Below are positions 1,032 through 34,003 of a stretch of DNA of 48,330 bases, one piece after another (within the stretch, counting starts at the first letter, position 1; each line of letters opens with the position of its first letter). The DNA is from Myxococcales bacterium (GTDB lineage: Bacteria; Myxococcota; UBA727; GCA-2721815). Below the pieces are notes generated by a model, which saw only the letters and a program-made list of their open reading frames with translations, was not told the DNA's origin and made no database searches. Location of the stretch: positions 1-48,330 of the forward strand of contig PBLQ01000018.1 of the NCBI GenBank assembly GCA_002721815.1, written 5' to 3'. The position numbers and the translations under genes are program-made.

Positions 1032-1111
1032 TGCGTCGCATCTGATGCCGGCTCTTTCTTGCCGTTTTTATGCTTATGTGGCACAACCACCCCACCACCA
1101 AGGGGGCCCCT

Positions 1112-2332
1112 ATGAAACACCTGTTACACGCTTGTATGGCCATCGGCATAATACTTTCTTTATGCGGTTGCCCCGCAGAAGAGCCCGAGGGGCCGTGCGA
1201 AGTTGATTGCGCCAGCTTAGAATACTGTGGGCAGCCCGCTTGCGAAGTATGCCCCAGTCTTTGCAACGAACCTAACCCCTCATCCAGCACCGACGCAGGA
1301 ACCACGCCCCAATCACCATCATCTGATGCAGGTCAACAAGATTCACCCATCACGGATGCTGGTACATCGGCCTCAGTCCCCGCCGAAGATGCGGGCAGCA
1401 CCACCGAACCTGAACCTCCCACTCCCAACGATGCAGGACCTCCCAACCAAGCTTTTAATTGCGACGCCATCAATAACATCCAAAAAAGCTGGGGCGGGAC
1501 CACAGGTCCCTGTGGTCCTCACGACGTGGTCACCATCAACAGCGATGGGACCGTCACCATCTCCGAAGAAGACGCTTATCCGCCCGACGGGGCTGTTGAA
1601 TGTGCCGCGCCGGCGCTCTGCCAATACACGGTCAGTGCTGAAACGGCCACCGACCTCGTCGCTTTGGTATGTACCGATTACAAGACCAACCACGACCCCA
1701 ACACCGATGGATGCGTGGGTGCTTACGAAAATTTTCGCCTGCGCCAAGACGATACGATCGTGGCCACCGCAGATATCAGTTGTGGCAACACCAGCATGAG
1801 CGCCAGTGAAATTGCCTTTATTGATTTCATGGCGGCATTGGCACCATCCTCCAACGATGCCGGAACGATCGCTCCAGACCCCGTAGAAGATGCGGGCAGC
1901 AGTGATGTCATTGACTGCGCCCAAGTGAATCTCCTCAAAAAAGTTTCCGGTGGCAGTTCTGGCCCCTGTGGACCACACACCAGCATCACTGTCAGTTCGA
2001 ACGGCACGGTAGAAAAGTCCGTAGAAGATGCCTATCCACCACAAGGCGAATCCGAATGTGCGTCGCCCGTGATCACCAACTACAACACTGCGGGATCAGA
2101 CGCCCTCGCCCTGATCACCAGTGTTTGCAATGACTACAACGCCAACTATGTGGCCAGCGCCCAATCTTGTGTGGGTGCCTACCAGTGGTTTGGTCTGTAT
2201 GACGATGATGCCGAATTAGGCAAAGCAGTTCTCAGCTGTGGCAACAGCAGCATGAACCCCAGTCAAGAGGCGTTCGACGCCTTCATGAACGCCCTCGAAT
2301 CCACCAATGCGACGGCCGACGCAGGACAATAA
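1112..2332 (+). CDS. Lipoprotein with two copies of an unrecognised domain
   Basis: The start is ATG 1112, preceded by an AAGGGGG Shine-Dalgarno at good spacing and followed by a lipoprotein signal (MKHLLHACMAIGIILSLCG|C). A longer in-frame start at 1070 would bury the signal peptide. After a Cys-rich segment and a linker with repeated DAG motifs come two homologous domains of about 125 residues, one ending before a second DAG spacer. Shared landmarks are a GG-x2-GPCGPH turn, an acidic 'EDAYPP.G..EC' stretch, a 'VC.DY..N' helix, a CVGAY strand and a C-G-N-x-S-M segment near the end. Six conserved Cys suggest disulfide bonds outside the cytoplasm. I do not recognise the family. The next gene, 24 bases on, carries a third copy, so the two are probably co-transcribed. 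Confidence 0.85.
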   Translation: MKHLLHACMAIGIILSLCGCPAEEPEGPCEVDCASLEYCGQPACEVCPSLCNEPNPSSSTDAGTTPQSPSSDAGQQDSPITDAGTSASVPAEDAGSTTEPEPPTPNDAGPPNQAFNCDAINNIQKSWGGTTGPCGPHDVVTINSDGTVTISEEDAYPPDGAVECAAPALCQYTVSAETATDLVALVCTDYKTNHDPNTDGCVGAYENFRLRQDDTIVATADISCGNTSMSASEIAFIDFMAALAPSSNDAGTIAPDPVEDAGSSDVIDCAQVNLLKKVSGGSSGPCGPHTSITVSSNGTVEKSVEDAYPPQGESECASPVITNYNTAGSDALALITSVCNDYNANYVASAQSCVGAYQWFGLYDDDAELGKAVLSCGNSSMNPSQEAFDAFMNALESTNATADAGQ

Positions 2333-2356
2333 AAAACCCAGCCCAAGGTAACCACT

Positions 2357-2965
2357 ATGATCTCTAAAATCTTCACCCCTTTTCTTTTGCTTCCTTTGTT
2401 TTTCTTTATCGGCTGCCCGGAAGAGCCCAAAGCCTGCAGCTACAACCCATGTGCGCCTGGCTGTCCGGTTATCCCCAGCTGTGAAGACGACCCTGTTGAT
2501 GCCGGGCCAAGCCTACAAGTGGATTGTGCGCAGGTGGACAACATCACCAAAAATTTCGGTGGCACCTCAGGTCCTTGTGGCCCCATTAGTTTTATCACCG
2601 TGAACGAAACCGGGTCGGTGGTGGAGTCCATCGGCGCTGCCAACCCCCCCGAAGGTGAAACCGAATGTGCCGAACCCACCGTAACCCATTACTTGGCTTC
2701 GCCCGCCAACGCGCGCGCCCTCATCGATACCGTTTGTGAAGATTACAATACTAATTATGTTCCGCCAGAAGGGGAACTTGAGTTGGGGGGCTACACCCAC
2801 TGGATCCTGCTCCAAGGCACCACCGAGCTGGGCAAAACCGAGATTAATTTAAGCGTCAGCTCAAATGCCCTGGACAGCTTCATGGTTGGGCTCACCCCCA
2901 ATAACCCACCCACCGAATCCAGCGATGCGGGTGTCTCCGTTCAACATGTTGATGCCGGGCAGTAA
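2357..2965 (+). CDS. Lipoprotein with a single copy of the same unrecognised domain
   Basis: A lipoprotein signal (MISKIFTPFLLLPLFFFIG|C) is followed by a Cys-rich stretch (CSYNPCAPGC), a short DAG linker and one domain of about 120 residues. This domain aligns along its length with both domains of the preceding gene: it has the GG-x2-GPCGP turn, a 'PPEGETEC' segment and 'VCEDYNTNY'. It has lost the Cys of the CVGAY strand (here LGGYTHW) and the C-terminal CGN motif, so it has fewer possible disulfides. The C-terminus ends with two more DAG motifs. Function unknown. The 24-base gap after the previous stop, with AAGGTAA before the ATG, suggests one operon. Confidence 0.82.
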   Translation: MISKIFTPFLLLPLFFFIGCPEEPKACSYNPCAPGCPVIPSCEDDPVDAGPSLQVDCAQVDNITKNFGGTSGPCGPISFITVNETGSVVESIGAANPPEGETECAEPTVTHYLASPANARALIDTVCEDYNTNYVPPEGELELGGYTHWILLQGTTELGKTEINLSVSSNALDSFMVGLTPNNPPTESSDAGVSVQHVDAGQ

Positions 2966-3018
2966 GCTCGGGTTCGCATCATGCACGCATAACCTTATTT
3001 TAATTTGGGTGAACGACC

Positions 3019-3321
3019 TTAGCCCTGCGCTTGGCGCGCGAAAACAAAAGGCTGAACGATCACAAAATCATAGATCTGTTCGGGCTGCGACTTCATGGCG
3101 CTCAACTGATCTTGAGAAGGCTTCGATAACCAACCTCGATCCACCCACAGCTCCATCAAGTCAGTGCAGTCTTCGGCCGCGGCAATGGCCACCTCTGTGA
3201 GCTCGAGCATTGGATCCACCAAAATAAGGGCATCGCGTTCCACATGAGGCTCCAATGCGTCCCACGCCACCTTTTGAATTTCACGTTTGATTTTGTCTCG
3301 TAAAGCTTGTGATTGGTTCAT
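3019..3321 (-). CDS. DUF2288 family protein
   Basis: This encodes a 100-residue cytoplasmic protein. The start is ATG 3321 with AGAGGA upstream; the longer in-frame start at 3372 lies upstream of the predicted promoter and is rejected. The pattern matches DUF2288: an N-terminal 'KIKREIQKVAWDALEPH' helix, a 'DALILVDPMLELTEVAIAAAED' core, an 'LWVDRGWL' segment and a C-terminal 'YDFVIVQPFVFAR' strand. The biochemical role of DUF2288 is not known; members occur in proteobacteria and cyanobacteria. It is convergent with the lipoprotein gene before it and divergent from the cyanophycin operon. Confidence 0.8.
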   Translation of the reverse strand: MNQSQALRDKIKREIQKVAWDALEPHVERDALILVDPMLELTEVAIAAAEDCTDLMELWVDRGWLSKPSQDQLSAMKSQPEQIYDFVIVQPFVFARQAQG

Positions 3322-3356
3322 GGTGTGATCCTCTTTTGGGGTGAAAATCCTACACC

Positions 3357-3385
3357 TGTATACAAGTAACATTTGAGCCTATCAA
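3357..3385 (-). promoter_or_regulatory. Sigma70-type promoter of the DUF2288 gene
   Basis: Read on the minus strand, TTGATA (3385-3380) and TATACA (3362-3357) are separated by exactly 17 bases. Transcription would start near 3350, about 28 bases before the ATG, leaving room for the AGAGGA ribosome site. The hexamers match consensus at 5/6 and 4/6 positions. Confidence 0.55.
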
Positions 3386-3676
3386 ACAACAAACCACCAC
3401 CCTTTTGTGACAAATGGTAAAACAACGAAGCTTTTCTTTGAACGCATTCCGCCTCCACCTTCGCCGTGGTCGATGTAAGTGCTTGTATTTAATGGCATTT
3501 AAATATTTCCTGCGCGGATGACCAGCGCCAACCCGTCGCTGACCGACGCAGCGCGAGCACTCAATGCAACAAGTTGAAAAAAAGGGGTTCCTACCTTGCC
3601 TTTTGTGGCATATAGGCGACCTCAGCATCTGTGTTTTTGAGCAAATCCCATCTTTTAATTTTTGAGCCGATACAAA
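3386..3676. other. Noncoding stretch upstream of the cyanophycin operon
   Basis: There is no credible gene between the DUF2288 promoter and iadA. The region should hold the promoter of the four-gene operon, but I see no hexamer pair with good spacing and no clear repressor palindrome. The closest candidate is TATAGG at 3611-3616 without a matching -35, so the promoter may use another sigma factor or an activator. Confidence 0.5.
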
Positions 3677-4861
3677 ATGAGAACGACGAATCCAATGATT
3701 GTTTTGCGCCATGGCGAGGTCTACGATCCGAGTCCCGTGGGTTCGTGCGATCTCCTTTTGGGTGGCGGAAAAATCTTAGCCATGGGACCCAAGCTGCCCA
3801 CGATGCCGAGCGAGCTTTCCGTTGAAGAAGTGGACGTCACAGGTCTGAAAGTCATTCCCGGTCTCATTGATGCGCATGTCCATGTGACCGGTGGCGGGGG
3901 CGAATCGGGATTTTCCACGCGAGTCCCCCGGGCTGCATTGAGCGAATTCACCAGAGCGGGCATTACCTCTGTGGTGGGCTTGCTGGGTGCGGACGGTACC
4001 ACACGTACCATTCGTGACTTGGTGGCCACCACCATGGGTCTTCGCGAAGAAGGTCTGTCCGCTTGGTGTTACACCGGCTCCTATCAAATCCCCGTCCCCA
4101 CCCTCACCGGCTCGGTGAGAGACGATATCGTGTATGTAGACCCAATTATCGGTGTGGGAGAAGTGGCCATCAGCGATCACCGTTCTTCACAGCCTACCCT
4201 TGATGAAATTCTGCGTTTGGCCTCTGAAGCCTATACCGCTGGCATGATCAGCCAAAAAGCCGGCGTGTTGCACTTTCATCTCGGCGATGGAGAGCGCGGT
4301 CTGGAGCTCATTCGCCAAGCACTCAAACAAGCTGAAATCCCCACGCGGGTCTACCACCCCACCCACGTGAACCGGCAGGTGCGATTGTTCGAAGAAGCCA
4401 TGACTTTGGCCGACCAAGGGGTCACTGTAGATGTCACCGCATTCCCCGATGCCGATGAGGGTTTGATGGCCCACGACGCCATCCACCAATGGATCGACAA
4501 TAAACGCCCCATAGAACAGATCACCTGCTCTTCTGATGGCGCGGGATGCCTGCCGACCTTCGACGATCAAGGCAACATGGTCGCCATGGGCGTGGGCGAC
4601 CCCATCAGCCTGACCCACACCCTCCAACAACTCTTGGAGCTGGGCCACGCACTCGAAACCATTTTACCCATCTTTACAACCAATGTTGCACGGGTCATGC
4701 GCCTATCCGGCAAAGGCCAGTTGCAAACGTCTGCCCATGCGGACGTGGTTTGTCTCGATCAAAACAATCAAGTTCACCATGTCTTGTGTAATGGCAAATG
4801 GATGATACGCCATGGCGAACCGGTGCATGTCGGCACCTTTGAAAGGAAAGAACAGTTATGA
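3677..4861 (+). CDS. iadA: Isoaspartyl dipeptidase (beta-aspartyl-peptidase)
   Basis: This is a metal-dependent amidohydrolase-fold enzyme that hydrolyses beta-aspartyl dipeptides; in this operon the expected substrate is beta-Asp-Arg released from cyanophycin. It is close in length and alignment to E. coli IadA: 'GLIDAHVHVTGGGGE' (first metal His pair), 'GITSVVGLLG', 'TGSYQIP', 'AISDHRSS', 'HFHLGDG', 'HPTHVNR' and 'CSSDGAG' (catalytic Asp region). The residue aligned with the carboxylated bridging Lys162 of E. coli IadA is Glu here (Glu162 in GVGEVAISDHR), so the two metals are probably bridged by a glutamate. I use ATG 3677; a TTG at 3662 and an ATG at 3695 are in frame, and none has a strong Shine-Dalgarno. 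Its stop overlaps the cphB start (ATGA), indicating translational coupling. Confidence 0.95.
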   Translation: MRTTNPMIVLRHGEVYDPSPVGSCDLLLGGGKILAMGPKLPTMPSELSVEEVDVTGLKVIPGLIDAHVHVTGGGGESGFSTRVPRAALSEFTRAGITSVVGLLGADGTTRTIRDLVATTMGLREEGLSAWCYTGSYQIPVPTLTGSVRDDIVYVDPIIGVGEVAISDHRSSQPTLDEILRLASEAYTAGMISQKAGVLHFHLGDGERGLELIRQALKQAEIPTRVYHPTHVNRQVRLFEEAMTLADQGVTVDVTAFPDADEGLMAHDAIHQWIDNKRPIEQITCSSDGAGCLPTFDDQGNMVAMGVGDPISLTHTLQQLLELGHALETILPIFTTNVARVMRLSGKGQLQTSAHADVVCLDQNNQVHHVLCNGKWMIRHGEPVHVGTFERKEQL

Positions 4862-5679
4862 GTCCCTCTTTGGTACCTGTAGGCAATGAACGCGGCTGGA
4901 TCGTCCCTGTGGGCGGTGCAGAAGAAAAGATTAGCGATCCTGCCATCCTGCAACGGTTTGTAGACATCTCCGGTGAAAGCAATGCACGCATTGCCATCAT
5001 TCCCACAGCTTCCCAGCTGGAAGACACCGGTCCCCTGTACGAAGAAATTTTTAAAGACCTGGGTGCTGGGTTTGCCCAAGCCCTTCCCTATGTGGAGCGC
5101 GGCGATGCAGACCGAGACGACTGGCACAATGTATTAGAGACGGCCAGCGGCATATTTTTTACCGGTGGAAACCAATTACGGATTTCCACCATCTTAGGCG
5201 GCACGCGCGTGGCCCAAACCATTCGCCGACAAAACGCCAACGGCATCACCGTAGGCGGAACTTCTGCAGGCGCGGCCATCTTACCCGAACACATGATCGC
5301 CTACGGCACCACTGGTGAAACCCCGCAGGCCGGCATGGTTTCGCTGGCCCCCGGCTTGGGACTCACCAACCGATTCGTGATCGATCAACACTTTAGAGAA
5401 AGAGATCGCTTGGGCCGATTACTCACCGCATTGAGCTACAACCCTTTCGCTGTGGGTTTAGGCATCGATGAAAACACGGCTGCCTTTATCTCTCCCGATA
5501 ATGTGATTCACGTGGAAGGCGCTGGCGCAGTGACCATCGTGGACGTGGCTGATGTAGAACACTCCTCTGTGGCCAGCGCCGACGAGGGTGAGAGCCTTTG
5601 CATCACCAACATCAAACTTCATGTTTTACCCCAAAACGCAACTTTCGACTTAACCACCCGGGAGGCCAAGCCGGCCTGA
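4858..5679 (+). CDS. cphB: Cyanophycinase
   Basis: This is a serine exopeptidase of family S51 that cuts cyanophycin into beta-Asp-Arg dipeptides. The 273-residue length is typical. Diagnostic motifs are 'IPTAS' near residue 45, 'FFTGGNQLR' around residue 100, the nucleophile elbow GGTSAGAA with Ser136, 'DQHFRERDRLGRL' and 'GIDENTA'. The ATG sits within the iadA stop (ATGA overlap), and cphA starts 27 bases downstream behind its own GAGGAG site. No signal peptide is visible, so it acts on intracellular granules. Gene order places the depolymerase between the dipeptidase and the synthetase, so one transcript encodes the whole cycle. Confidence 0.96.
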   Translation: MSPSLVPVGNERGWIVPVGGAEEKISDPAILQRFVDISGESNARIAIIPTASQLEDTGPLYEEIFKDLGAGFAQALPYVERGDADRDDWHNVLETASGIFFTGGNQLRISTILGGTRVAQTIRRQNANGITVGGTSAGAAILPEHMIAYGTTGETPQAGMVSLAPGLGLTNRFVIDQHFRERDRLGRLLTALSYNPFAVGLGIDENTAAFISPDNVIHVEGAGAVTIVDVADVEHSSVASADEGESLCITNIKLHVLPQNATFDLTTREAKPA

Positions 5680-5706: not shown

Positions 5707-8496
5707 ATGAAAATCATTGAACGACGTGTTTACCGAGGACCGAACCTTTACGCCCATTTCCCCGTGATCCGCCTGACCATCGATCTGCAAGAGCTCGAAC
5801 AATGGCCCAGTGCAACCATCCCGAAGTTCAATGACAACTTGGTCGAGTTGTTGCCGTCGCTGTACGAACACACTTGTTCATATGGTGTTGAAGGCGGCTT
5901 TCTCCGACGGCTGCGTGAAGATGAAGGGACGTGGATGGGACACGTTCTCGAGCACATCACCATTGAATTGCAGCAATTGGCTGGGGCCAAAGTCACTTAC
6001 GGTAAAACCCGTGGCACCGGGGAAGAAGGTGTCTATTACATGGTCTATGCCTACGAAGAAGAAAAAGTGGGCATGGCGGCTGCAGAGCTGGGCCTTCAGC
6101 TCATTCAAAAGTTGCTGCCTGATAACCTGCGCAGTGAACACATCACCCTGCCCAAAAATTTCGATTTCAAAGAAGAACTCGATGAACTCATTGGTTTTGC
6201 CCAACGCCGCCAGTTCGGCCCTTCCACTGCCTCTTTGGTAGAAGCCGCCGAGAAAAGAGACATCCCTTGGCTGCGACTGAACGATTACTCTTTGGTGCAG
6301 TTCGGACACGGCAAGCACCAACAACGGGTTCAGGCCACCATCACCTCTCAAACCAAACACATTGCGGTAGAGATTTCTTCAGACAAAGAAGAAACTCACA
6401 AAATCTTGGAAGACCTGGGACTGCCCGTTCCACGTCAAGAATTGGTACGCACCCGAAGCCGTGCGGTGGCCTTGGCCGAACGCATGGGCTATCCCGTGGT
6501 GATCAAGCCTTATAATGGCAACCATGGCCGAGGCGTTTCCCTCAACATTCAAAACGAAGAGCAAGTGGAAGCCGCTTTGAAAAAAGCCCAAGAGCATTCC
6601 CGCACCGCAGTGATTGAAACCATGATCGAAGGTTTCGATCACCGCATGTTGGTGATCAACGGTGAATTGACTGCGGTGGCCAAACGGGTGCCCGGCCACG
6701 TGGTGGGCGATGGCCAACAAACCATTTCCCAACTGGTGGACGAAGTGAACCGCGATCCACGCCGCGGCATTGGGCACGAAAAAGTCCTCACACGCATTGA
6801 GCTGGATTACCAAGCCGAGCGATTGATGGCTGCTGCCAACTACACCCCCGAAACAGTCCTGGAGAAAGATGAAATCTTTTATCTGCGCTCCACTGGTAAT
6901 CTTTCCACCGGCGGTACTGCCATCGATATGACCGATTTGGTCCACCCTGATAACCGCGACATGGCGGAACGCGCAGCCAAGGCCATCGGCCTCGATGTGG
7001 CGGGTGTGGATTTCATCACTCCCGATGTCACCAAGTCTTACAAAGAAATTGGCGGTGCCATTTGCGAAATCAATGCCGCTCCCGGCTTTCGCATGCACGT
7101 GGCCCCCACCGAAGGAACACCTCGAGACGTGGCCGGTCCCGTTATTGATACTTTGTTCCCTCCTGGAACTCCGGCTCGTATTCCCATTGCCTCCATCACG
7201 GGCACCAACGGTAAAACCACCACCACCCGAATGGTGGCACATATCCAAAAGATGACCGGTCGTACCGTGGGACTGTCCACCACCGATGGGGTTTATATCG
7301 ATGGGGTGCGCTCCGTTGAAGGCGATATGACCGGCCCGATGGCTGCAAAAATGATTCTTCGCGATCCCACCGTAGATATGGCGGTACTGGAAACTGCACG
7401 GGGCGGTCTGTTACGCGCCGGCCTGGGCTACCGTTCGTGTAACGTGGGCGCCGTGTTGAACATTGCCAACGACCACTTGGGCCTCAAAGGGGTAAATACC
7501 CTTGAAGATTTGGCCAGTGTCAAACGCGTGGTGGCAGAAGTCGCGCGCGATTGTGCGGTACTCAACGCCGATGACATTCATTGTCTGAAAATGGCAGATC
7601 ACACCAAAGCCGAGCGCATCGCTTACTTCACCATGAACCCTCGCAATGAACTGGTGCGTAAGCACATTCAAGTGGGCGGGCTCGCTGCCGTATTAGAAGA
7701 AGGCATCAACGGACATATGATCACGCTGTACAACGAAGGCCAACACTTGCCGTTGTTGTGGACCCATTTGATTCCGGCGACGCTCGAGGGCAAAGCCCTG
7801 CACAATGTTCAAAACGCCATGGCCGCCGCTTTGGTGGCATACGCCATGGATGTGAGCATGGAAAACATCCGGCAGGGTTTGCGTACATTTGACACGTCTT
7901 ATTTCCAAGCCCCCGGCCGCTTGAATGTATACAACGAGCTGCCATTCAAAGTCATTTTGGATTATGCACACAACCCTGTGGCCATTCAGTGCATGGTGGA
8001 CCTGGCAACGCGCATGGAGCCTGAAGGACGTCAAATCTGCGTTCTTTCTGCACCTGGTGACCGACGTGACGAAGACGTTCAAGACATCGCACGCATTGCT
8101 GCCGAAGGGAACTTCTCTCACATCATCGTTCGTCGCGATGACCACCCACGGGGCCGTGACCTTGATGAAATCCCCAACCTGCTTCGACGCGGATTGGTGG
8201 AGTCCGGATACCCAGAGTCGCAAATCTCTGTGGTTCCCGATGAACAACAAGCCATTCATCACGCTTTAGAAATGTCCAAGCGGGGTGATTTACTGTTGAT
8301 TTTCGGCGACCAAATTTCACGCAGCTGGAAACAAATCGTGAAGTTCAAAGAAAGCCGCGAACTCAACCCGGTGAGCACTTCGCTCGAAGGTAGCCCGGTG
8401 ATGCCACCTTTGGACACGGACGACTTACCTTCCATGGACGGTGAGCTCATTTCCGATGCGCGGGGGGTTCGACTGGCTCGGGAGCTCAACGACTGA
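5707..8496 (+). CDS. cphA: Cyanophycin synthetase
   Basis: This bifunctional ligase of 929 residues makes multi-L-arginyl-poly-L-aspartate without a ribosome. Domains in order: N-domain (about 1-165; begins 'MKIIERRVYRGPNLY'), a connector (IPWLRLNDYSLVQFGHGK, about 186-203), an ATP-grasp domain (about 215-480) with 'VVIKPYNGNHGRGVSL' from residue 264 that adds Asp to the backbone, and a Mur-ligase domain with the P-loop GTNGKTTT at 499-506, 'VLETARGGLLR' and 'IANDHLG' that adds Arg. The C-terminal third contains the 'DYAHNP' and 'SAPGDRRDED' segments of the family. The ATG has a GAGGAG ribosome site. The stop overlaps the ATG of the next gene by one base (TGATG). Full length with both active sites intact, so it should be functional. 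Confidence 0.97.
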   Translation: MKIIERRVYRGPNLYAHFPVIRLTIDLQELEQWPSATIPKFNDNLVELLPSLYEHTCSYGVEGGFLRRLREDEGTWMGHVLEHITIELQQLAGAKVTYGKTRGTGEEGVYYMVYAYEEEKVGMAAAELGLQLIQKLLPDNLRSEHITLPKNFDFKEELDELIGFAQRRQFGPSTASLVEAAEKRDIPWLRLNDYSLVQFGHGKHQQRVQATITSQTKHIAVEISSDKEETHKILEDLGLPVPRQELVRTRSRAVALAERMGYPVVIKPYNGNHGRGVSLNIQNEEQVEAALKKAQEHSRTAVIETMIEGFDHRMLVINGELTAVAKRVPGHVVGDGQQTISQLVDEVNRDPRRGIGHEKVLTRIELDYQAERLMAAANYTPETVLEKDEIFYLRSTGNLSTGGTAIDMTDLVHPDNRDMAERAAKAIGLDVAGVDFITPDVTKSYKEIGGAICEINAAPGFRMHVAPTEGTPRDVAGPVIDTLFPPGTPARIPIASITGTNGKTTTTRMVAHIQKMTGRTVGLSTTDGVYIDGVRSVEGDMTGPMAAKMILRDPTVDMAVLETARGGLLRAGLGYRSCNVGAVLNIANDHLGLKGVNTLEDLASVKRVVAEVARDCAVLNADDIHCLKMADHTKAERIAYFTMNPRNELVRKHIQVGGLAAVLEEGINGHMITLYNEGQHLPLLWTHLIPATLEGKALHNVQNAMAAALVAYAMDVSMENIRQGLRTFDTSYFQAPGRLNVYNELPFKVILDYAHNPVAIQCMVDLATRMEPEGRQICVLSAPGDRRDEDVQDIARIAAEGNFSHIIVRRDDHPRGRDLDEIPNLLRRGLVESGYPESQISVVPDEQQAIHHALEMSKRGDLLLIFGDQISRSWKQIVKFKESRELNPVSTSLEGSPVMPPLDTDDLPSMDGELISDARGVRLARELND

Positions 8497-10208
8497 TGCA
8501 ACTGGTGGACGCACGCAGACTGACCGGCCCCAACCTGCAAACGCGGGTTCCAGGGGCCGTCACGGAAGTCGCCTTTGAACCCGGCGACGATCCTCAAGCC
8601 TGCTACGCCCGCTGGCAACATCACCTTCAATCCATTTGCGAACACCTGCCTTTTTCCGGCGGTCCCACCGTGGCACGGTTTTATGAGGGCGGTGCGGCCT
8701 GGGTTCTTCCCGGTGCCATCGATCGATTGTATGCCGTGATTTTAGCCTGCGAGTACGCGGTGGCCCAAACCATCGCAGAACAAAAAGGCGAAGCCGGTCC
8801 CGATTTGGCAGAAACGTTGGATGCCATTCGCGCCGAATACGAAGAAGAGCAATGCGAAACCCTCTTGGCCATTGAACAAGAAGCGCAAAAGCAAAAAGTT
8901 CCGTTTTTGTGGGACGATGATTTCGTTTCGGTGGGTTACGGTAAAGACTCCATCACTTGGACAGAACGACAACTCCCCCAGCCCCATGACATTCCCTGGA
9001 ACACGCTTTCTTCTATCCCCATTGTCTTCATCACGGGCACCAATGGTAAAACCACCACCTCCAGGCTCTTGGCGCGCATGGTTCGCTGTGCAGGCCTTGC
9101 GCCAGGTAACAGTTCCACCGACGGGGTTTTCATCAATGAACAGTTGGTGGAAGAAGGCGACTGGACCGGTCCCGGTGCTGCACGTACCATTTTACGGCGA
9201 AAAGATGTGGATGTGGCGGTTTTAGAGGCTGCACGTGGCGGTATTTTACGACGGGGCCTTGGGGTGGAATCTTGTGAAGCCGCCCTGGTCACCAATGTGG
9301 CCAACGACCATTTAGGTGACTACGGCATTCACACCGTTCCCCAAATGGCGCAAGCCAAAGGGGTGGTCTATGACGTGGTCAGCCCTGACGGCTTTTGTGT
9401 CTTCAATGGTGATGACGAAAACACCCGACAGCTGGGGCAAACCAAGCCCGGCAATAAAATCTTTTTCAGTGTTCACGGTAAAACAGCATTCCTTGAAGAA
9501 CGACAACAAATGGGAGATGCGCTGCTTTATATTGAACAAGGCAACATCATTTGGGATCACGAAGGAGAACAGCAACTTTTGTGCCCCATCGCAGATTGCC
9601 CCCTGTCCATGCATGGCACCGCGCTTTATAACATCTCAAACATTCTCGGCGCTGTGGGCCTGGGCATGGCCCTCAAGTTGCCCAAGTCCGCCATGCTCGA
9701 AGCACTTCAATCCTTTGGTGCATCCTGGCACGACAACCCGGGCCGAGGACAACTCACACATATCAATGGCGTTCAAATCTTGCTGGATTTTGGACACAAT
9801 CCACATGGTGTCGCTGCTGTTTTGCAAATGGCGCGCGATCTTCTTGCCCAACAAAACCAAGGGGGCCGTTTCAGCGTGAGCATGGGACAAGCGGGCGATC
9901 GCAATGACACGGATTTGATCGAGCTGTGTGAGAGCGTGGCGCCCTTAAAGCCCGACCGAATTTATTTGCGAGACATGAAAGAATACCTTCGGGGTCGGCC
10001 CCAAGGTGAAGTGCCGCAAATCATGAAATCCAATCTCGAAAAAATGAACTACCCCACATCGCAGATCTTTCATTGTGAAACAGAGATCGAATCCTTGCAC
10101 CACGCGCTGAAATGGGCCCAACAGGGAGACATGGTGGTTCATTTGGTCCATACAGAGCGCGAGCCCATTCAGCAATTTCTGAAGGAATCCGGGGCCCAAA
10201 TGAGCTGA
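8496..10208 (+). CDS. CphA paralogue with N-domain and Mur-ligase domain but no ATP-grasp domain
   Basis: This 570-residue protein starts like CphA ('DARRLTGPNL' versus 'ERRVYRGPNL') and keeps the connector that precedes the ATP-grasp domain in CphA (VPFLWDDDFVSVGYGK at 135-150, aligned with IPWLRLNDYSLVQFGHGK). It then goes almost directly into a Mur-ligase domain with an intact P-loop (GTNGKTTT, from residue 181), 'LEAARGGILRRGLG', 'NVANDHLG', 'DFGHNPHG' and 'GQAGDRND'. The roughly 280-residue ATP-grasp domain is absent. By homology it could form only the ATP-dependent bond of the Mur-ligase site, which in CphA adds Arg to Asp side chains. Cyanobacterial CphA2 is, as I recall, the opposite case, with the Mur-ligase site lost. 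It could assist CphA as a subunit, or attach Arg or another amine to the polymer; this is inference. It overlaps cphA by one base. Confidence 0.88.
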   Translation: MQLVDARRLTGPNLQTRVPGAVTEVAFEPGDDPQACYARWQHHLQSICEHLPFSGGPTVARFYEGGAAWVLPGAIDRLYAVILACEYAVAQTIAEQKGEAGPDLAETLDAIRAEYEEEQCETLLAIEQEAQKQKVPFLWDDDFVSVGYGKDSITWTERQLPQPHDIPWNTLSSIPIVFITGTNGKTTTSRLLARMVRCAGLAPGNSSTDGVFINEQLVEEGDWTGPGAARTILRRKDVDVAVLEAARGGILRRGLGVESCEAALVTNVANDHLGDYGIHTVPQMAQAKGVVYDVVSPDGFCVFNGDDENTRQLGQTKPGNKIFFSVHGKTAFLEERQQMGDALLYIEQGNIIWDHEGEQQLLCPIADCPLSMHGTALYNISNILGAVGLGMALKLPKSAMLEALQSFGASWHDNPGRGQLTHINGVQILLDFGHNPHGVAAVLQMARDLLAQQNQGGRFSVSMGQAGDRNDTDLIELCESVAPLKPDRIYLRDMKEYLRGRPQGEVPQIMKSNLEKMNYPTSQIFHCETEIESLHHALKWAQQGDMVVHLVHTEREPIQQFLKESGAQMS

Positions 10209-13576: not shown

Positions 13577-13750
13577 AAGGCCCTCAAATCAAATGAATGT
13601 TGCCGCAAGCATAGCCAGACCCTGAAAAATCCTCAAACAACCCGTGATTGAGCCCCTCAAAAAAGGCCAAAAAAACGCAGTTCGGCCTCCTTCATCCCAA
13701 AGCCGGACAACTCTGCTCGCATTTAAAAGCCCAAACCCGTGTCTTTCTGC

Positions 13751-13756
13751 TATAAT
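13751..13756 (+). promoter_or_regulatory. Putative -10 element of the phosphatase gene
   Basis: A perfect TATAAT precedes the proposed TTG start at 13785 by 28 bases. No strong -35 is seen. If it is used, transcription starts near 13763, which rules out the upstream in-frame GTG at 13644 as the translation start. Confidence 0.45.
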
Positions 13757-13784
13757 AAAGCTCTTTACCCCAGCGAGGCGCGCT

Positions 13785-16220
13785 TTGAACCAGACCCCTT
13801 TTCACCTTCTTTTCGCCGCGGGCTTACTGTTGCTGGGCGGCTGCCCGCCTGAAGCAGCCCAATTCGAAGAACCCAACCCGTCGGCCGGAAAACAAAATGA
13901 CGCGGGGGTGAGCCTCGAAAGCGAGCCAGACAGCCCCGTAACTGACAGCGGTGGGTTTGATGCCGGTGCCCCCGAAATACAGTTAGGCATTTGGGATTCT
14001 GGTGAATTCCACGAAGGGGACGGAGGCCACGGTGAGACGCTCCCAGAAGATGCGGGTGAACCCTCTTTGTGGGATGCCGGAACACAACTGGATTTTGTAT
14101 CCTGCTTACAGTCCACCGAGTGCGTTGATAACGATGACTGCTGCACACCCGGCTGCACCAATGATGAAGACAACGACTGCGATAACCAAACGGTGATCAG
14201 CATTCAGCCTTATCTGCAATTCCCCACCCCCACCTCCATGTGGATCATGTGGGAAACCGAAGATGCTGCCAGCAGCATGGTGCTGTGGGGAACCACCGTG
14301 GATCTCGTCAATGGCACCGACAGCACGAGTTTTACGCCTTGGCTCAGCGGCCGCCGGGTGCATGAAACCCACCTTGAAAACCTCGAGCCTGACACCCTGT
14401 ATTTTTACCAGGTGCACACCGGCAACACCACCAGCGCCATTTACCACTTCATCACCCCCGACACCGCAGACTCCGAAGCGCCCACCCAGCTGGTGGCCAT
14501 GAGCGACATGCAAAAAGACAACAGCAACCCCGACAAGTTTCGAGAAATCGTTGAAGAGGGCGTGCTCGACTACTTGGCGGCAGAATGGCCAGACTACGAC
14601 CTCACCGAAATCCTCGATCTGGTGCTCATTCCCGGGGACCTGGTGGACTCGGGTCTTTTTTACAGCCAATTTCGAACCCAGTTCTTTAATCCGGCTGAAG
14701 GGCTTTTGTCGTACGTTCCTGTTTTGCCAGTACTCGGCAATCACGAAGCCAACAGTCAATACTATTTCGATTTATTTCACCTGCCCGAACAGGCCTCCGG
14801 CAACAATAAAGAGCATTGGTGGTATTCCGATCACTCTAACCTGCGGGTGATTGGCCTCGATTCCAACTGGCGCCCCTGGCCCTACGACGCAGACGACCAG
14901 CTCGCATGGCTCGAAGAAACCCTGAATGAAGCTTGTGATGCTGACAACATCGACTTTGTTTTTACCGAGCTGCACCACCCCGCCAAATCCGAAGCGTGGC
15001 CCGTGGGCGAATCGGATTTCACCATGGATGTGGTGGAACGCATGGAAAACTTCACCGCCACCTGCGACAAACCCTCCATTCACTTTTTTGGTCACACCCA
15101 TGCATACTCCCGAGGCCAATCCCGCGATCACCGGCACCTGTGGGTCAATGTGGCATCGGCCGGCGGCAACTTAGATTATTGGGGCGAGTACAATCAAACC
15201 GACTACGACGAATTCAACGTGACCCTGGACGAATACGGGTTTGTCCTGGTGGACGTGCAGGCAGGGACCGACCCTTCATTTCTCTTGCAACGCATCAGCC
15301 GTGGCGATGAGAACAATTCGATCAACAATGCCATTAAAGACGAAGTTTTCATTCGGCGGTACAACCAAAGCCCCGTTTCGCCCACCGGGCTTTCGCCTTC
15401 GGGCAACGATCTTTGTCCCTGGGACTTAATTTTAGCCGCCTCCGAATTTTCAGATCCCGACACCGAAGATGAGCACGGGGCGTCCCACTGGCAAATTAGC
15501 GACGATTGTGATGACTTTGCATCCCCGCTTTGGGAGTCTTGGAAGCAACATGAAAACTGGTACCGCGATGAGGACTTACAAGCCGAAGACGATCTGACCG
15601 ACGAAGCAGTGGCCAGTTTGGACAGCGGCGGCTCTTACTGTTGGCGGGTGAGGTATCGAGACCGTGGGCTCACCTGGAGCCCGTGGTCCACCCCCATGGC
15701 TTTTTCCACCGTCAACGGCACCGGCAACCTTTTAGACAACCCAGGTGCCGAAGCGGGAATGGCCGGTTGGACCACCACCGCAGGCCATGCCGAATCCTTG
15801 TTGAACGCCCAATGCAACGGCATCGCCCCCCATTCAGGCTTTCGTTACTTCGCCATCGGTGCCCTGTGCGACAGCGCCAGCTACAGTGAAGCCATGCAAG
15901 AAGTGCATGTCCCCGGCGATCTGTACAGCGCAGTAGACAACGGCAGCGCCACTGCTTCTTTCGGAGGCTACCTGGCCAACTACAGCGGTGACGATCAACC
16001 CGAAATGAAATTGGTCTTCACCAATGGTAACAATGCCGTCTTGGGGCAAAGTGAAGTGCTGGGAACTTTGGCCGATGAATGGACTTGGTTGACGGCCACC
16101 GTTGCTGTGCCCACCGGAACCCGCCACGTGGAAATGGTGCTTATGGGCACACGCAATGCCGGCAGCGATAATGACAGTTACTTCGACGATCTCTTCTTAG
16201 AGCTGGGGGCCTGCCAATGA
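13785..16220 (+). CDS. Purple acid phosphatase-like metallophosphoesterase lipoprotein
   Basis: The start is TTG 13785, with GAGG six bases upstream and a lipoprotein signal immediately after (NQTPFHLLFAAGLLLLGG|C). A longer frame from GTG 13644 would place 47 residues before it. After a DAG-type linker (about 25-110) comes a fibronectin-III-like N-domain of the purple acid phosphatase kind ('PTSMWIMWETEDAASSMVLWG', 'LEPDTLYFYQVHTGN'). The calcineurin-like metallophosphatase core follows, with Asp241 (SDMQ), Asp285 (PGDLVDSG), Asn319/His320 (GNHE), His397/His398 (ELHHPAKSE) and His437/His439 (GHTHAYSRG). The C-terminal 350 residues contain an Fn3-like part ('YCWRVRYRDRG.TWSPWS') and a jelly-roll carbohydrate-binding-like part. 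It likely removes phosphate from esters outside the cell. The stop overlaps the next start (ATGA). Confidence 0.88.
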   Translation: MNQTPFHLLFAAGLLLLGGCPPEAAQFEEPNPSAGKQNDAGVSLESEPDSPVTDSGGFDAGAPEIQLGIWDSGEFHEGDGGHGETLPEDAGEPSLWDAGTQLDFVSCLQSTECVDNDDCCTPGCTNDEDNDCDNQTVISIQPYLQFPTPTSMWIMWETEDAASSMVLWGTTVDLVNGTDSTSFTPWLSGRRVHETHLENLEPDTLYFYQVHTGNTTSAIYHFITPDTADSEAPTQLVAMSDMQKDNSNPDKFREIVEEGVLDYLAAEWPDYDLTEILDLVLIPGDLVDSGLFYSQFRTQFFNPAEGLLSYVPVLPVLGNHEANSQYYFDLFHLPEQASGNNKEHWWYSDHSNLRVIGLDSNWRPWPYDADDQLAWLEETLNEACDADNIDFVFTELHHPAKSEAWPVGESDFTMDVVERMENFTATCDKPSIHFFGHTHAYSRGQSRDHRHLWVNVASAGGNLDYWGEYNQTDYDEFNVTLDEYGFVLVDVQAGTDPSFLLQRISRGDENNSINNAIKDEVFIRRYNQSPVSPTGLSPSGNDLCPWDLILAASEFSDPDTEDEHGASHWQISDDCDDFASPLWESWKQHENWYRDEDLQAEDDLTDEAVASLDSGGSYCWRVRYRDRGLTWSPWSTPMAFSTVNGTGNLLDNPGAEAGMAGWTTTAGHAESLLNAQCNGIAPHSGFRYFAIGALCDSASYSEAMQEVHVPGDLYSAVDNGSATASFGGYLANYSGDDQPEMKLVFTNGNNAVLGQSEVLGTLADEWTWLTATVAVPTGTRHVEMVLMGTRNAGSDNDSYFDDLFLELGACQ

Positions 16221-16902: not shown

Positions 16903-17964
16903 CTATTCTACCACCACCTCATCCACACAAGGCACTGGCGTCCACGGGGCTGCGAGGTTGGTGCAGCGCCCGGGCAACAACCCAAGTTGAGTGGTGGTTC
17001 CATCGGTGGTATTCACTTCATACAGATAGGATAAGCTTGAAGGGTCGGTGCAAAAATACAACTTGTGATCGTCAGGGTGCCATTCAATGCCTACGGCCCC
17101 GACCGCAATGTCCAGCCCCACCGTGACCGTGGCGAAGCCAGTTTGGATGTCAATGTTGTGTAAACTGCTGTTGTTGCTGTTGATCGAGTAGAGACCATTA
17201 ATATCTTCAGCCCAAGTGGTGCCCGAATTCAAAAAGTTACTTCCAAGCGGGCCCACTTCGGTGCCCGCCCCGGTTTCAATGTCTAACGTCACCAGTTTAT
17301 CGGTGCTGGTGCTCAAACCAAACAATGTTTCTATTTTATCCCCATTGGCCGTGATGCCAGGAATCGATCCCCAATTGGTGGGCCCAATTTCTGTGACGTC
17401 GCATGTACAAGGATCGATGATGTCCAAGGTTCGCTGGGTGGCATTAGAACCATACAGGGTGCCGTCAAAACCAAACGTGGTGGAATTGTAAGAGTCCGTG
17501 GTGCTCAATAAACACAGGGGCGTCCAGTTGCCGGTGACGGTGTCTATTTTGATCAAAGTGTCCGAAGCGTTTTCCACGCTTAAGAGCCATGGGATCACTG
17601 GTTCAGGCGGAGGGCCCGCATCGAGGACCTCTTCAACCATTTGCGTTTCTTGGCCTGCATCCAAAAGGGACACCCCCGCATCGGCTTGCGGCGTGCCGGT
17701 TGGTGGGTTCATCGTGCCACCATCGGGATGGACCACAACAGAAGCGCCGGCGTCTACATTGCCGTCGCCACCCAAGGGAACACATGTGTTCTGCTCACAC
17801 ACCAAGCCCAATTCGCACAAGGTGGATGCATCGCAAGGCGCTCCGACCTTGCCCTTTAATGGTGCACCTGAGCCATCCCCCGGAGCAGGTAATCCAGGTT
17901 TAATTTCTGAAGGGCATGCCAGCGATATGAGCGCAAAAGAAAGAGTGGCGGTCAGTCGAAACAC
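16903..17964 (-). CDS. Propeller-like lipoprotein, paralogue 3 of 3
   Basis: The GTG start directly follows the stop of the upstream paralogue (TAG then GTG), with GGAG nine bases before it. The lipoprotein signal is MFRLTATLSFALISLA|C. A Cys module (CDASTLCELGLVCEQNTCVP) and a DAG/DGG linker lead to a C-terminal domain of about 240 residues. This domain has repeating strands of the type 'L-x-K/T-I/L-D-T/I-x-T-G', 'STTFGFDGTLYG', 'DIIDPCTCDV', 'SIPGITANGDK', 'SGTTWAEDINGLY' and 'GIEWHPDDHKLYFCT', and ends 'CTNLAAPWTPVPCVD'. The pattern suggests a seven-bladed beta-propeller of the kind that binds ligands or partners. No catalytic motif is visible. Last gene of a three-paralogue array. Confidence 0.82.
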   Translation of the reverse strand: MFRLTATLSFALISLACPSEIKPGLPAPGDGSGAPLKGKVGAPCDASTLCELGLVCEQNTCVPLGGDGNVDAGASVVVHPDGGTMNPPTGTPQADAGVSLLDAGQETQMVEEVLDAGPPPEPVIPWLLSVENASDTLIKIDTVTGNWTPLCLLSTTDSYNSTTFGFDGTLYGSNATQRTLDIIDPCTCDVTEIGPTNWGSIPGITANGDKIETLFGLSTSTDKLVTLDIETGAGTEVGPLGSNFLNSGTTWAEDINGLYSINSNNSSLHNIDIQTGFATVTVGLDIAVGAVGIEWHPDDHKLYFCTDPSSLSYLYEVNTTDGTTTQLGLLPGRCTNLAAPWTPVPCVDEVVVE

Positions 17965-18972
17965 CTATTCCGACTCCAGATTGTCGATACAGCTCACGGG
18001 CGTCCAAGGGGCGGCCAAATTGTTGCAGCCATAGCCCATGTTCGTGATCAAGCCTGTTTGGCCCGTGTTAACATCTACGCTGTAAAGGTTGGAGTCTCCG
18101 CCATTGGGGTTGGTGCACGTGTAAAGCGTTTGGGTTCCGATGTGGTATTCAATCCCCACCAAATTGACATTGATATCGATATCGGCAATCGCGGTGGCCA
18201 GCCCCGTCTCCGCGTCGAGAACATACAACTTGTCTGTGAGGTTATTGATGGCATACAGCCCCTCCAGTTCCGTGGACCAAGTGGTCCCCGAATAATGAAA
18301 ATCCAAGCCCAAATCGCCCACGGGGCTGACGACGCCCGTCTCGACACTTAATGTCAATAGTTTGTCCTGATCGGTGCTCAATCCAAATAGCGTTTCTTCT
18401 TTGTTGCCGTCCGCAGTGATGCCTGGAATACTGGTGTACGTTAAACCGTTACTGTCAATGCTGGCCCCCACTTCCGTGACTTCACAAGTGCACGGGTCGA
18501 TGATGTCTAAAGATTTATTAAACCCGTTCCACCCATACAGGGTGCCATCCAAACCAAAAGTGGTCGAGGGGTAGCTGACGGCTTCAGCAAAATCGCATAC
18601 GGTGGTCATCTGACCGGTGGCGGTGTCTATTTTTACTAAATTGCCGAGGGCATTGTTCACGCTGAGCAGCCAAGGCAACACGCCAATGGGTGCCGCTCCC
18701 GCATCAATACTGGCACCTGCATCCTCGGCAGATGTTATGAGGCCCGCATCTCCAACGGTGAGCATTCCCGCATCGACCGCACCCGAAGCGGGTTGGGCAG
18801 GAACGCATTGATCGGCAACACATTCAAAACCCAAATCGCATGGTGACAATGGACACCCCAGCTCGGTCGCGCCACCGTCCAACACTGAACCTTGAGGCTC
18901 GTCCATTGCTTTGGGACAGCCCAAATACATCATCAACATCAATGTTATCAAAATGCGTAAACTCAAAATCAT
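17965..18972 (-). CDS. Propeller-like lipoprotein, paralogue 2 of 3
   Basis: I use ATG 18972; a GTG two codons upstream (18978) is also in frame. The signal peptide is MILSLRILITLMLMMYLG|C. The Cys module reads CPLSPCDLGFECVADQCVP, followed by a DAG linker and the same propeller-like domain as its neighbours: 'PWLLSVNNA', 'KIDTATGQ', 'STTFGLDGTLYGWN', 'IIDPCTCEV', 'SIPGITADGNKEE', 'SGTTWSTELEGLYAI', 'GIEYHIGTQTLYTCT' and 'CNNLAAPWTPVSCID'. The gene abuts its downstream paralogue with no gap. Tandem duplication is evident. Function unknown. Confidence 0.82.
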   Translation of the reverse strand: MILSLRILITLMLMMYLGCPKAMDEPQGSVLDGGATELGCPLSPCDLGFECVADQCVPAQPASGAVDAGMLTVGDAGLITSAEDAGASIDAGAAPIGVLPWLLSVNNALGNLVKIDTATGQMTTVCDFAEAVSYPSTTFGLDGTLYGWNGFNKSLDIIDPCTCEVTEVGASIDSNGLTYTSIPGITADGNKEETLFGLSTDQDKLLTLSVETGVVSPVGDLGLDFHYSGTTWSTELEGLYAINNLTDKLYVLDAETGLATAIADIDINVNLVGIEYHIGTQTLYTCTNPNGGDSNLYSVDVNTGQTGLITNMGYGCNNLAAPWTPVSCIDNLESE

Positions 18973-19089
18973 CACCACCTGTATCGGAACGCCATGCGCA
19001 GCCTGTTCGTCTCTGTATATAATGTAACATGACGAATTGGCGTAATTTTTATGTGCCCAGATCGAGCAGTAAACCCCTGAAAGAAAGGG

Positions 19090-20247
19090 CTAATTGTTGA
19101 TGTTCACCGCCCCAGAATGGCCGGCATCGGCGGTTTCGCCCCCAGAAGAGTCGTCAGGCCGAATCACATCAATTACATCAACACAGTGTACCGCGGTCCA
19201 AGGGGCCGCTAGGTTATTACAGGCCCCCGGCAAACTGTTGATAAATTCGGCATGGCCGGTGTCTGGATTTATTTTGTACAATTTGGAAAGTCCTGGTGCC
19301 GGGTCGTCGGCGTGAAAATTATCGGTGGGGGAAGTCCCAAGACCACCAGAGCCATTTGTGCACGCATAGAGGTTGCTGTCGTAAGGGTTCCATTCAATGC
19401 CAACGTAATGAAAATCGGCATCAAGCTGTACCGCTTCGGTGGCGTTACCGTTGAGTAAATCCAGAGTGTACAGCATGTCGTTATCGCCATTTAAAGCGTA
19501 CAGCCCGGCAATGTCATTGGACCACGTGGTTCCAGAGGTGGTGAAATTCAAGCCCAACTCGCCCACTGGCGTGCCGCTTCCCGTTTCGGTGCTCAGCTCC
19601 AACAGCAAATCATTGGTGGTTTCAATGCCGTAAAGCTGGTCTTCTTTAACGCCATTGGCCGTGATGCCCGGAAGTGTTCCGTAGCCTGTCTCACCCAAAG
19701 ACACCAGGTCACAACTGCAAGGGTCGAGAATCTCGATGGTGTGGTCCGTGGAGTTGGATGCATATAAAACCCCATTGATGCCAAAGGTGGTCGAAGTGTA
19801 GAATTTGTTCACACCCAAAAGGCATAAAGAAATGTATTCGCCAGTTTCGGTGTCGATTTTAAAGAGTTCTGCAGAATCGGTACCGCCATTCACCACCGAT
19901 AAGAGCCATGGGCGCACGTCGCTGTCATAAGGGTCTTGGGGTTGGGGCAATCCGGAGCCAGCATCATGCACCGACGTGTCAGTGCTTGGGTTGCCCGCAT
20001 CGGCGACCGTGGTTTGCGTGGTAGAGGCGCCGGCATCATTGACGGAGTTGGCTTGGTCATCGGGCATGTTGGGATCGGCACAAACCTGATCGGTGCATAA
20101 CAAACCCACTTCACAATCGGTATTAACGGTACATGGCTCTCCCAAAGCCGCTCGTTGGCTCTCGGCATCCCCGCGTCCATCAGGATCAGGACAAGAGACC
20201 GCAAAGAGAAGACCCATCACTCCCCAACTTAACCCCAAATAACGCAT
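19090..20247 (-). CDS. Propeller-like lipoprotein, paralogue 1 of 3
   Basis: The lipoprotein signal is MRYLGLSWGVMGLLFAVS|C. A Cys module (CTVNTDCEVGLLCTDQVC) and a DAG linker precede the shared domain: 'PWLLSVVNGG', 'FKIDTETGEY', 'STTFGINGVLYASN', 'ILDPCSCDL', 'TLPGITANGVKED', 'SGTTWSNDIAGLYAL', 'GIEWNPYDSNLYACT' and 'CNNLAAPWTAVHCVD'. It has an extra loop after the last quoted CT strand and a longer C-terminal tail with Ser/Gly and one more DAG motif. It is separated from paralogue 2 by about 110 bases, so it may have its own transcript. The divergent gene at 20383 shares the upstream region. Confidence 0.82.
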   Translation of the reverse strand: MRYLGLSWGVMGLLFAVSCPDPDGRGDAESQRAALGEPCTVNTDCEVGLLCTDQVCADPNMPDDQANSVNDAGASTTQTTVADAGNPSTDTSVHDAGSGLPQPQDPYDSDVRPWLLSVVNGGTDSAELFKIDTETGEYISLCLLGVNKFYTSTTFGINGVLYASNSTDHTIEILDPCSCDLVSLGETGYGTLPGITANGVKEDQLYGIETTNDLLLELSTETGSGTPVGELGLNFTTSGTTWSNDIAGLYALNGDNDMLYTLDLLNGNATEAVQLDADFHYVGIEWNPYDSNLYACTNGSGGLGTSPTDNFHADDPAPGLSKLYKINPDTGHAEFINSLPGACNNLAAPWTAVHCVDVIDVIRPDDSSGGETADAGHSGAVNINN

Positions 20248-28530: not shown

Positions 28531-29034
28531 GGTCACTCCTGTTGGGTTCGAATTTACCCAAAAAGAGTTTCATGCTGCAACGTTCGCGTCGTTTTAAATC
28601 ACGGTGTTTTGGCGAAAACCGAACGGCGCGCCCAGAAAATTTGTACTCACCGACCCAAAGTACATTGGCCTCAAATGCCATTTCACTGGGCCAAAACAAA
28701 CCCTTTTCACCAAGATTCGTACCAAAAACATCTTCATCTGTGGCCTCAAAAAAACATCAGGCACCTCACCAGCCATGGCCCCACCTTTGTCCTGGAGGCA
28801 CCGGTGACCATTTTGAGAGTCCACTTACTCCACGGGCGGGTATCATAAAATCGGCCGTGCCGTGATTCACCTGGACAAAGAGCGGCACAGCCCACAAGGC
28901 TTATGATGCCCATCATCACCGGGCCCAACTTGACGCGTACTCGAATCATGACAGCTTCCCCCAGCGCTTTTCATTCGATGCTTTCTTCTATAACATGAGC
29001 GTCTTCACATCGAAAAAGAGCCTGTTTTTCCACC
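28531..29034. other. Gene-poor stretch containing a decayed gene fragment
   Basis: Apart from the Rhs ribosome site (AGGAG just upstream of 28530) and the fragment at 28817-28906, I find no credible gene. A 67-codon frame at 28604-28807 has no recognisable motif or ribosome site. The promoters of the Rhs gene and the GreA-like gene should lie here, but no clear hexamers were found. Confidence 0.6.
28817..28906 (+). pseudogene. Decayed partial copy of the GreA-like gene
   Basis: In frame from 28817 the sequence reads E-STYSTGGYHKIGRAVIHL-DKERH and hits a stop at 28904. It aligns without gaps to residues of the intact gene 300 bases downstream (E-TKGSAGDKHETGRAMIHL-EKEQH), 13 of 24 identical by eye. 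At DNA level 28844-28888 matches about 38 of 45 bases. A TGA at 28814 ends the frame upstream, and no start or flanking domains are present. This is a remnant of a tandem duplication or of a related gene. Confidence 0.7.
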
Positions 29035-33830: not shown

Positions 33831-34003
33831 AAAAAGTGTCCTCGAAACAGCAAAAAATGAGGCCCATCCAACAAACACCGCGGGGCTCTCAGGACAGTAC
33901 CGTTAAATCATGCACCGAGATGCTGAAAAGTTCCAGGGGTGTGCCTTGTGCAGCTTTATTCAGTGTGCCACATGAAGGGTCGATCTTTCAAGGAGTTGGC
34001 AGC

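Follow-up and report, generated by a model that had tools for sequence, protein, structure and literature searches.

Cyanophycin synthesis is usually attributed to a single self-sufficient enzyme, the cyanophycin synthetase CphA, and the start of cyanophycin chains is a long-standing question in the field. In cyanobacteria a specialised paralogue, CphA2, has lost its M site: it has a three-domain layout and polymerises beta-Asp-Arg dipeptides via the G site. CphA1 extends chains at their C-terminus, its M domain putting arginine on the side chain of the terminal aspartate (PMC9262961; PMC9427784). Two CphA-type genes may also stand side by side, as in the tandem cphA1/cphA2 pair of Sideroxydans (PMC5178258). 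Here we describe a locus in which an intact cphA is followed by the gene of a short relative. Like CphA2, the short protein is a specialised CphA paralogue minus one ligase activity, but it has the M site only and no G domain; in this sense its architecture is the reverse of CphA2, as the initial annotation of this DNA had recognised.

The window, by which we mean the whole stretch of 48,330 nucleotides that was analysed, comes from a Myxococcales bacterium. It carries an operon in the order iadA-cphB-cphA-short ligase. The gene iadA (3662..4861, +) encodes an isoaspartyl dipeptidase (TIGR01975, 404 bits; start codon uncertain), cphB (4858..5679, +) a cyanophycinase (TIGR02069, 257 bits), and cphA (5707..8496, +) a full cyanophycin synthetase of 929 aa (TIGR02068, 1180 bits). 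In the latter, N domain, ATP-grasp and Mur domains are all matched by Pfam, the G and M domains are intact and the zinc motif of the N domain is in place. The last gene (8496..10208, +) begins with ATG and encodes 570 aa; its start codon (8496-8498) overlaps the cphA stop codon TGA (8494-8496) at base 8496, giving TGATG. Both this reading frame and its coupling to an intact cphA directly upstream had been called correctly from the letters.

Other genes of the window are listed here for completeness. They encode a lipoprotein-like purple acid phosphatase of 858 aa (13644-16220, +), a tandem of three related lipoprotein-like ORFs of 353, 337 and 385 aa (16903-20247, -) with the common layout PWLLSV...DTxTG...LAAPWTxVxC, a 2190-aa protein with a teneurin-like YD-shell, RHS repeats and a teneurin TTR-like domain (21964-28536, -), and, in this bacterial host, a copper type II ascorbate-dependent monooxygenase, PHM/DBM-like (32415-33878, -).

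According to Pfam, TIGRFAM, AlphaFold and Foldseek, the short protein is a CphA-lineage ligase composed of an N domain, a stub of the G domain and a Mur-ligase domain, without the ATP-grasp module. Residues ~1-100 (8496..8795, +) form a diverged CphA-type N domain, identified from the AlphaFold model, Foldseek and an alignment with 114 CphAs; it is too diverged for a sequence-level match to the Pfam N-domain model PF18921. Residues ~118-155 (8847..8960, +) align with CphA ~169-206, the beginning of the G domain, and include the connector motif VPFLWDDDFVSVGYGK exactly at residues 135-150, where it had first been placed. The alignment then jumps to the Mur-ligase domain, residues ~172-565 (9009..10190, +; Pfam and alignment), with its P-loop TGTNGKTT (180-187), E244, D271-H272, K288, H434-N435 and R499-G500-R501. 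The only Pfam matches are Mur_ligase_M (179-389) and Mur_ligase_C (416-548), with none to ATP-grasp even at E<=1.

With this absence of a match and ~16 residues between the stub and the Mur domain, a hidden degenerate ATP-grasp is ruled out; a degenerate but complete one was seen neither in Pfam nor in the alignment. The initial claim that only the ATP-grasp domain is missing holds for that module, but ~40 residues from the start of the G domain are kept, and the HxxEH zinc-protease helix of the CphA N domain is also absent, from all of the 59 short proteins aligned (0/59). The protease motif Cx19HxxEH, present in 83% of CphA1s (PMC9262961), is equally found in 0/59. The retained stub argues for a three-domain ancestor and a later loss of ATP-grasp, rather than for a module not yet gained.

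The AlphaFold model of the short protein, built from ten Myxococcota relatives, has a mean pLDDT of 91.9 and no segment below 50. Its top Foldseek matches in the PDB are the CphA1 structures 7wae, 7lgj and 7lg5 (E about 1e-40; TM 0.83-0.84 by query length), the alignments spanning 882-890 columns although the query has 570 residues; MurE ranks after them, at E about 1e-20. Since the model aligns along full CphA1 chains and skips the G domain, its N and M domains have the same placement as those of CphA1.

The short protein thus shares with CphA1 the N and M folds and their arrangement (TMq 0.84), the M-domain catalytic residues and the gene neighbourhood. Unlike CphA1, it has neither the ATP-grasp module nor the N-domain zinc motif, its amine loop is remodelled, R[ASE]GL is replaced by RRGL, and identity in the M domain is about 35%. 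Against TIGR02068 it scores 358 bits, over the last 390 model positions only, and stays far under the curated cut-off of 850 bits. With MurE and other Mur ligases it has in common the Mur_ligase_M/C folds, the P-loop, the carbamylated-Lys position and a DNPR-equivalent loop; in contrast, the UDP-sugar-binding N domain of MurE is replaced by that of CphA, and the protein falls far below all MurE cut-offs (101 bits vs 373 for the MurE equivalog).

Residues T180, G181, N183, G184, K185, E244, D271, H272, K288, N382, R417, D431, H434, N435 and R469 are invariant in 59/59 short proteins. K185, T186, T208 and E244 correspond to K499/T500/T522/E558 of TeCphA1, which matter in its Mur domain (PMC9427784), and D271 and H272 to D585/H586 of SuCphA1, whose mutation inactivates the M domain (PMC9262961). 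The Mur-ligase site is therefore intact, as initially annotated: every residue with a demonstrated role in the Mur domains of CphA1 is kept, T186 being Ser in 22/59 and T208 in 6/59. Catalytic residues that never vary in 59 relatives from several phyla indicate a family under selection as an enzyme, and on this sequence evidence the short ORF is in all probability an active CphA-lineage ligase that performs a single step, not a relic. A non-catalytic role, whether as a regulatory or scaffolding subunit or as a degenerate relic, would be in keeping with the loss of the protease site from the N domain and with the faster evolution of the short family relative to CphA, visible in branch lengths. 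The same invariance speaks against it, and so do two genomes (G1204 and G1618, described below) that have no short gene altogether, as opposed to an inactive version; we consider such a role very unlikely indeed.

Two arginines distinguish the short proteins from CphA. R253 (9252..9254, +) is Arg in all 59 and A/S/E in most CphAs, and lies in the segment ARGGxLRRGL; R230, an additional Arg compared with CphA, is found in 58/59. In the alignment with MurE, these segments match those that line its acceptor side. The acceptor site of the short enzyme may be more basic than that of CphA.

The amine-recognition loop is remodelled to LRDMKEYLRGR (9966..9998, +; alignment), against VRRDDHPRGR in CphA and TSDNPR in MurE. 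CphA D811, present in 67/67 partner CphAs and 35/47 others, becomes Leu, Met, Ile or Val in 56/59 short proteins; the loop has also gained a residue, aromatic or His (Tyr in 49, His in 5 and Phe in 4 of 59). Such changes could point to an enzyme that loads the polymer, as the initial annotation had suggested, or the partner's tail with a non-Arg amino acid, altering its composition or capping chains. However, both RGR and the acidic residue one position before it are retained, leaving Arg binding possible, and no consistent extra amino-acid pathway gene was seen beside the pair, in a search that covered cphB, iadA, iaaA and two dehydrogenases. The loop by itself neither proves nor excludes a different amine, and we judge this explanation improbable. 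On a plasmid of Ruegeria sp. THAF33 (L137), saccharopine-dehydrogenase-like and aldehyde-dehydrogenase genes (1055-3676), as for lysine catabolism, lie just upstream of cphB-cphA-short. This is possibly a hint about the amine, or chance; the dehydrogenase pair was not seen in the other clusters tested.

Within the phylum, the short protein was found in 12 of 195 genomes. A scan of public genome contigs with the window protein as single query returned nothing; with an alignment of a family-specific stretch it returned many relatives, whose records bear the labels Alpha- and Gammaproteobacteria, Gemmatimonadota, Acidobacteriota, Neomarinimicrobia, Planctomycetota and Myxococcota. The signatures of the family are all present in the window pair: the N+M architecture, GDxxGPxxAR, ARGGxLRRGL and a partner CphA with an Asp-ending RGVR tail. 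Ruegeria and Roseateles plasmids carry the short gene next to cphA and cyanophycinase, under the annotation 'Mur ligase family protein'. The two-domain architecture next to cphA is widespread: in every locus showing upstream sequence the short gene is directly 3' of a full CphA, with one unlinked exception. Partner CphAs are about 56-76% identical to the window CphA.

In the tree, short proteins form one clade (95/100) and partner CphAs another (99/95). Their inner branching is very similar, the pattern of two genes passed on jointly by inheritance or transfer. The two clades are not sisters, so the short gene is no duplicate of its neighbour, and a recent duplication of cphA is ruled out as its origin. 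The word paralogue, used from the start, thus stands for descent from the CphA lineage and falls for a copy of the adjacent gene: the short family branches deeply, as a clade of its own. Three gammaproteobacterial genomes of about 2 Mb (L144, L146, L147) carry a diverged pair, with a short protein 27-28% identical and CphA tails with a DESG[VI]RV motif and an END or DND end; neither cphB nor iadA was found beside these pairs.

Proteins with CphA N and M parts and most or all of ATP-grasp missing are also found in Legionella adelaidensis (622 aa) and on Deinococcus deserti plasmid 3 (724 aa). Their position inside other CphA clades of the tree indicates independent losses, and in the stretches examined no tail CphA lies beside them. 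The Legionella gene (L138, 7542-9410; plasmid NZ_LR134428.1) has its N-domain HxxEH and Mur P-loop intact, is neighboured by cyanophycinase and isoaspartyl peptidase genes, and has no full cphA in the 17 kb examined. In the Deinococcus protein (L163, 4047-6221; NC_012528.1) the Mur P-loop GTNGKST is intact and the N-domain zinc motif is lost. Tandem cphA pairs, in Sideroxydans and in two of our genomes (G412 and G423), resemble the short-ligase loci in having two CphA-type genes side by side. In the latter two (L152, L153), however, both long genes are CphA-matched across the ATP-grasp region, the member examined has no Asp tail, and there is no short ligase.

The strongest clue to the function of the pair, absent from the initial annotation, is a conserved Asp-ending tail on the partner CphA. 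Beyond the Mur domain, partner CphAs continue for ~50 aa, with an unalignable linker and then a conserved end like LVRDERGVRLAREEDD. In the window CphA the tail covers residues ~885-929 (8359..8493, +; alignment), starting with the variable linker and ending in ELISDARGVRLARELND. Its conserved motif ISDARGVRLARELND (8449..8493, +; tail alignment) finishes with the codon GAC (8491-8493), the invariant C-terminal Asp. The consensus reads ...DERGVRLARExxD; 7-11 residues separate the RGV-type motif from the terminal Asp, which is always flush with the stop codon. The last 8 residues of the tail contain on average 3.7 acidic ones, vs 0.8 in other CphAs. No second carrier of the strict pattern DxRGVRxAR was found in this genome.

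In a first survey, all 67 partner CphAs (67/67) end in Asp after an RGV-type motif, whereas among CphAs without the short gene the motif occurs in 0/47 and an Asp end in 3/47. A second survey, which covered Gemmatimonadota, Acidobacteriota and one gammaproteobacterial family, gave 28 linked cases and 1 unlinked, all Asp-ending, and 9 CphAs with neither feature. Over both surveys, 96/96 tail CphAs end in Asp and the motif is missing from 56 CphAs without the short gene, the absence of that gene being established genome-wide for some of the unpartnered CphAs and a few loci being close relatives.

The exceptions are few. The one unlinked case in total (L186; G1002) has the tail but no adjacent short gene, and the short gene is found elsewhere in the genome (G1002:C1:109926-111608). 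Another locus (L098), the single apparent tail without partner in the first survey, was rejected when the short gene was found just downstream. Conversely, two genomes, which may be incomplete, have lost the short gene. In G1204, a CphA of the partner clade has no RGVR motif and still ends in ...ETED; in G1618 the tail breaks off after RDKRGVRLRRG and has no acidic Asp end. As partner CphAs make up one clade, the association of tail and short gene largely reflects one gain, two losses and long joint retention, not 96 independent events. Co-loss of the tail with the short gene adds to their conserved pairing, and a functional link between the short protein and the CphA tail is very likely.

The link could be one of docking. 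The tail would then recruit the short enzyme, which would add Arg to unmodified Asp at the growing end of the polymer and raise the rate or completeness of its modification; this comes close to the proposal of the initial annotation and is the main rival to the reading we prefer. It has in its favour catalytic residues identical to those of CphA M domains, an obligate pairing and tail co-loss that fit a docking peptide, and an acidic tail whose conserved RGVR motif resembles a linear motif. Yet the M domain of the partner CphA is fully intact, and docking accounts for pairing and co-loss but not for an Asp flush with the stop at a variable distance from the motif. Moreover, an AlphaFold model of the read-through fusion of tail and short protein, based on the in-frame locus L060, gave a tail pLDDT of 30-43, a weak hairpin and no docking, a result that is weak though negative, since the fusion is a single chain that hides the free C-terminus. 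Altogether, we find the accessory role rather unlikely.

We tentatively favour a two-part system, in which an active short ligase is coupled via the tail to CphA and, by the mechanism that we rank first, would charge the tail Asp as a primer. With ATP-grasp lost and the N and Mur domains kept, amidation of an Asp side chain is possible and backbone lengthening is not. Since the CphA Mur domain normally modifies a C-terminal Asp, we propose that the short ligase charges the terminal Asp of the tail: an Asp-ending protein tail is what an M-type domain would accept, and a Mur-only enzyme would suit that single step. The extra arginines on the acceptor side and the acidic end of the tail are in line with this. 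Judged from sequence conservation, this Asp is a candidate acceptor in which our confidence is equally tentative, if not slightly lower.

In the proposed mechanism, the flexible tail of CphA would offer its invariant C-terminal Asp as acceptor; using ATP, the short enzyme would then link the beta-carboxylate of this Asp to an amino acid, by default Arg. The charged tail would be a protein-borne first unit, which CphA could extend at the C-terminus, comparable to glycogenin starting glycogen, and the N-domain protease of CphA could release the chain later. A more doubtful step is that CphA would elongate the polymer on its own C-terminus, storage granule chains being covalently bound to the synthase from the outset. 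Several points weigh against priming. With its remodelled amine loop, the short enzyme may use an amine different from Arg, and 66/67 partner CphAs keep the N-domain protease, which already makes primers, so that the need for another priming route is not obvious. The undocked tail of the fusion model, the single-clade origin of the partner CphAs and the ...ETED end of G1204 also count against it.

A primer might also be soluble, the short enzyme joining free Asp and Arg into a diffusible beta-Asp-Arg. The first ligations are indeed the slow steps of primer-free synthesis (PMC9262961), and an enzyme without G domain would be capable of the side-chain step only. On the other hand, this would leave the CphA tail unexplained, and iadA of the same operon would hydrolyse the dipeptide; we hold it to be very unlikely.

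In the literature that we searched, with partial coverage, we found no published description of the short family or of the tail, and a prior mention is possible. A large CphA clade across several phyla has a conserved partner ligase and a matching Asp-ending tail. Their co-occurrence hints at an unrecognised two-enzyme cyanophycin system, in which chains may even begin on the synthetase. Tail priming, if correct, would represent a new mode of initiation for a non-ribosomal polyamide. The pair could possibly serve as a handle for higher yield or altered polymer composition in biotechnology hosts.
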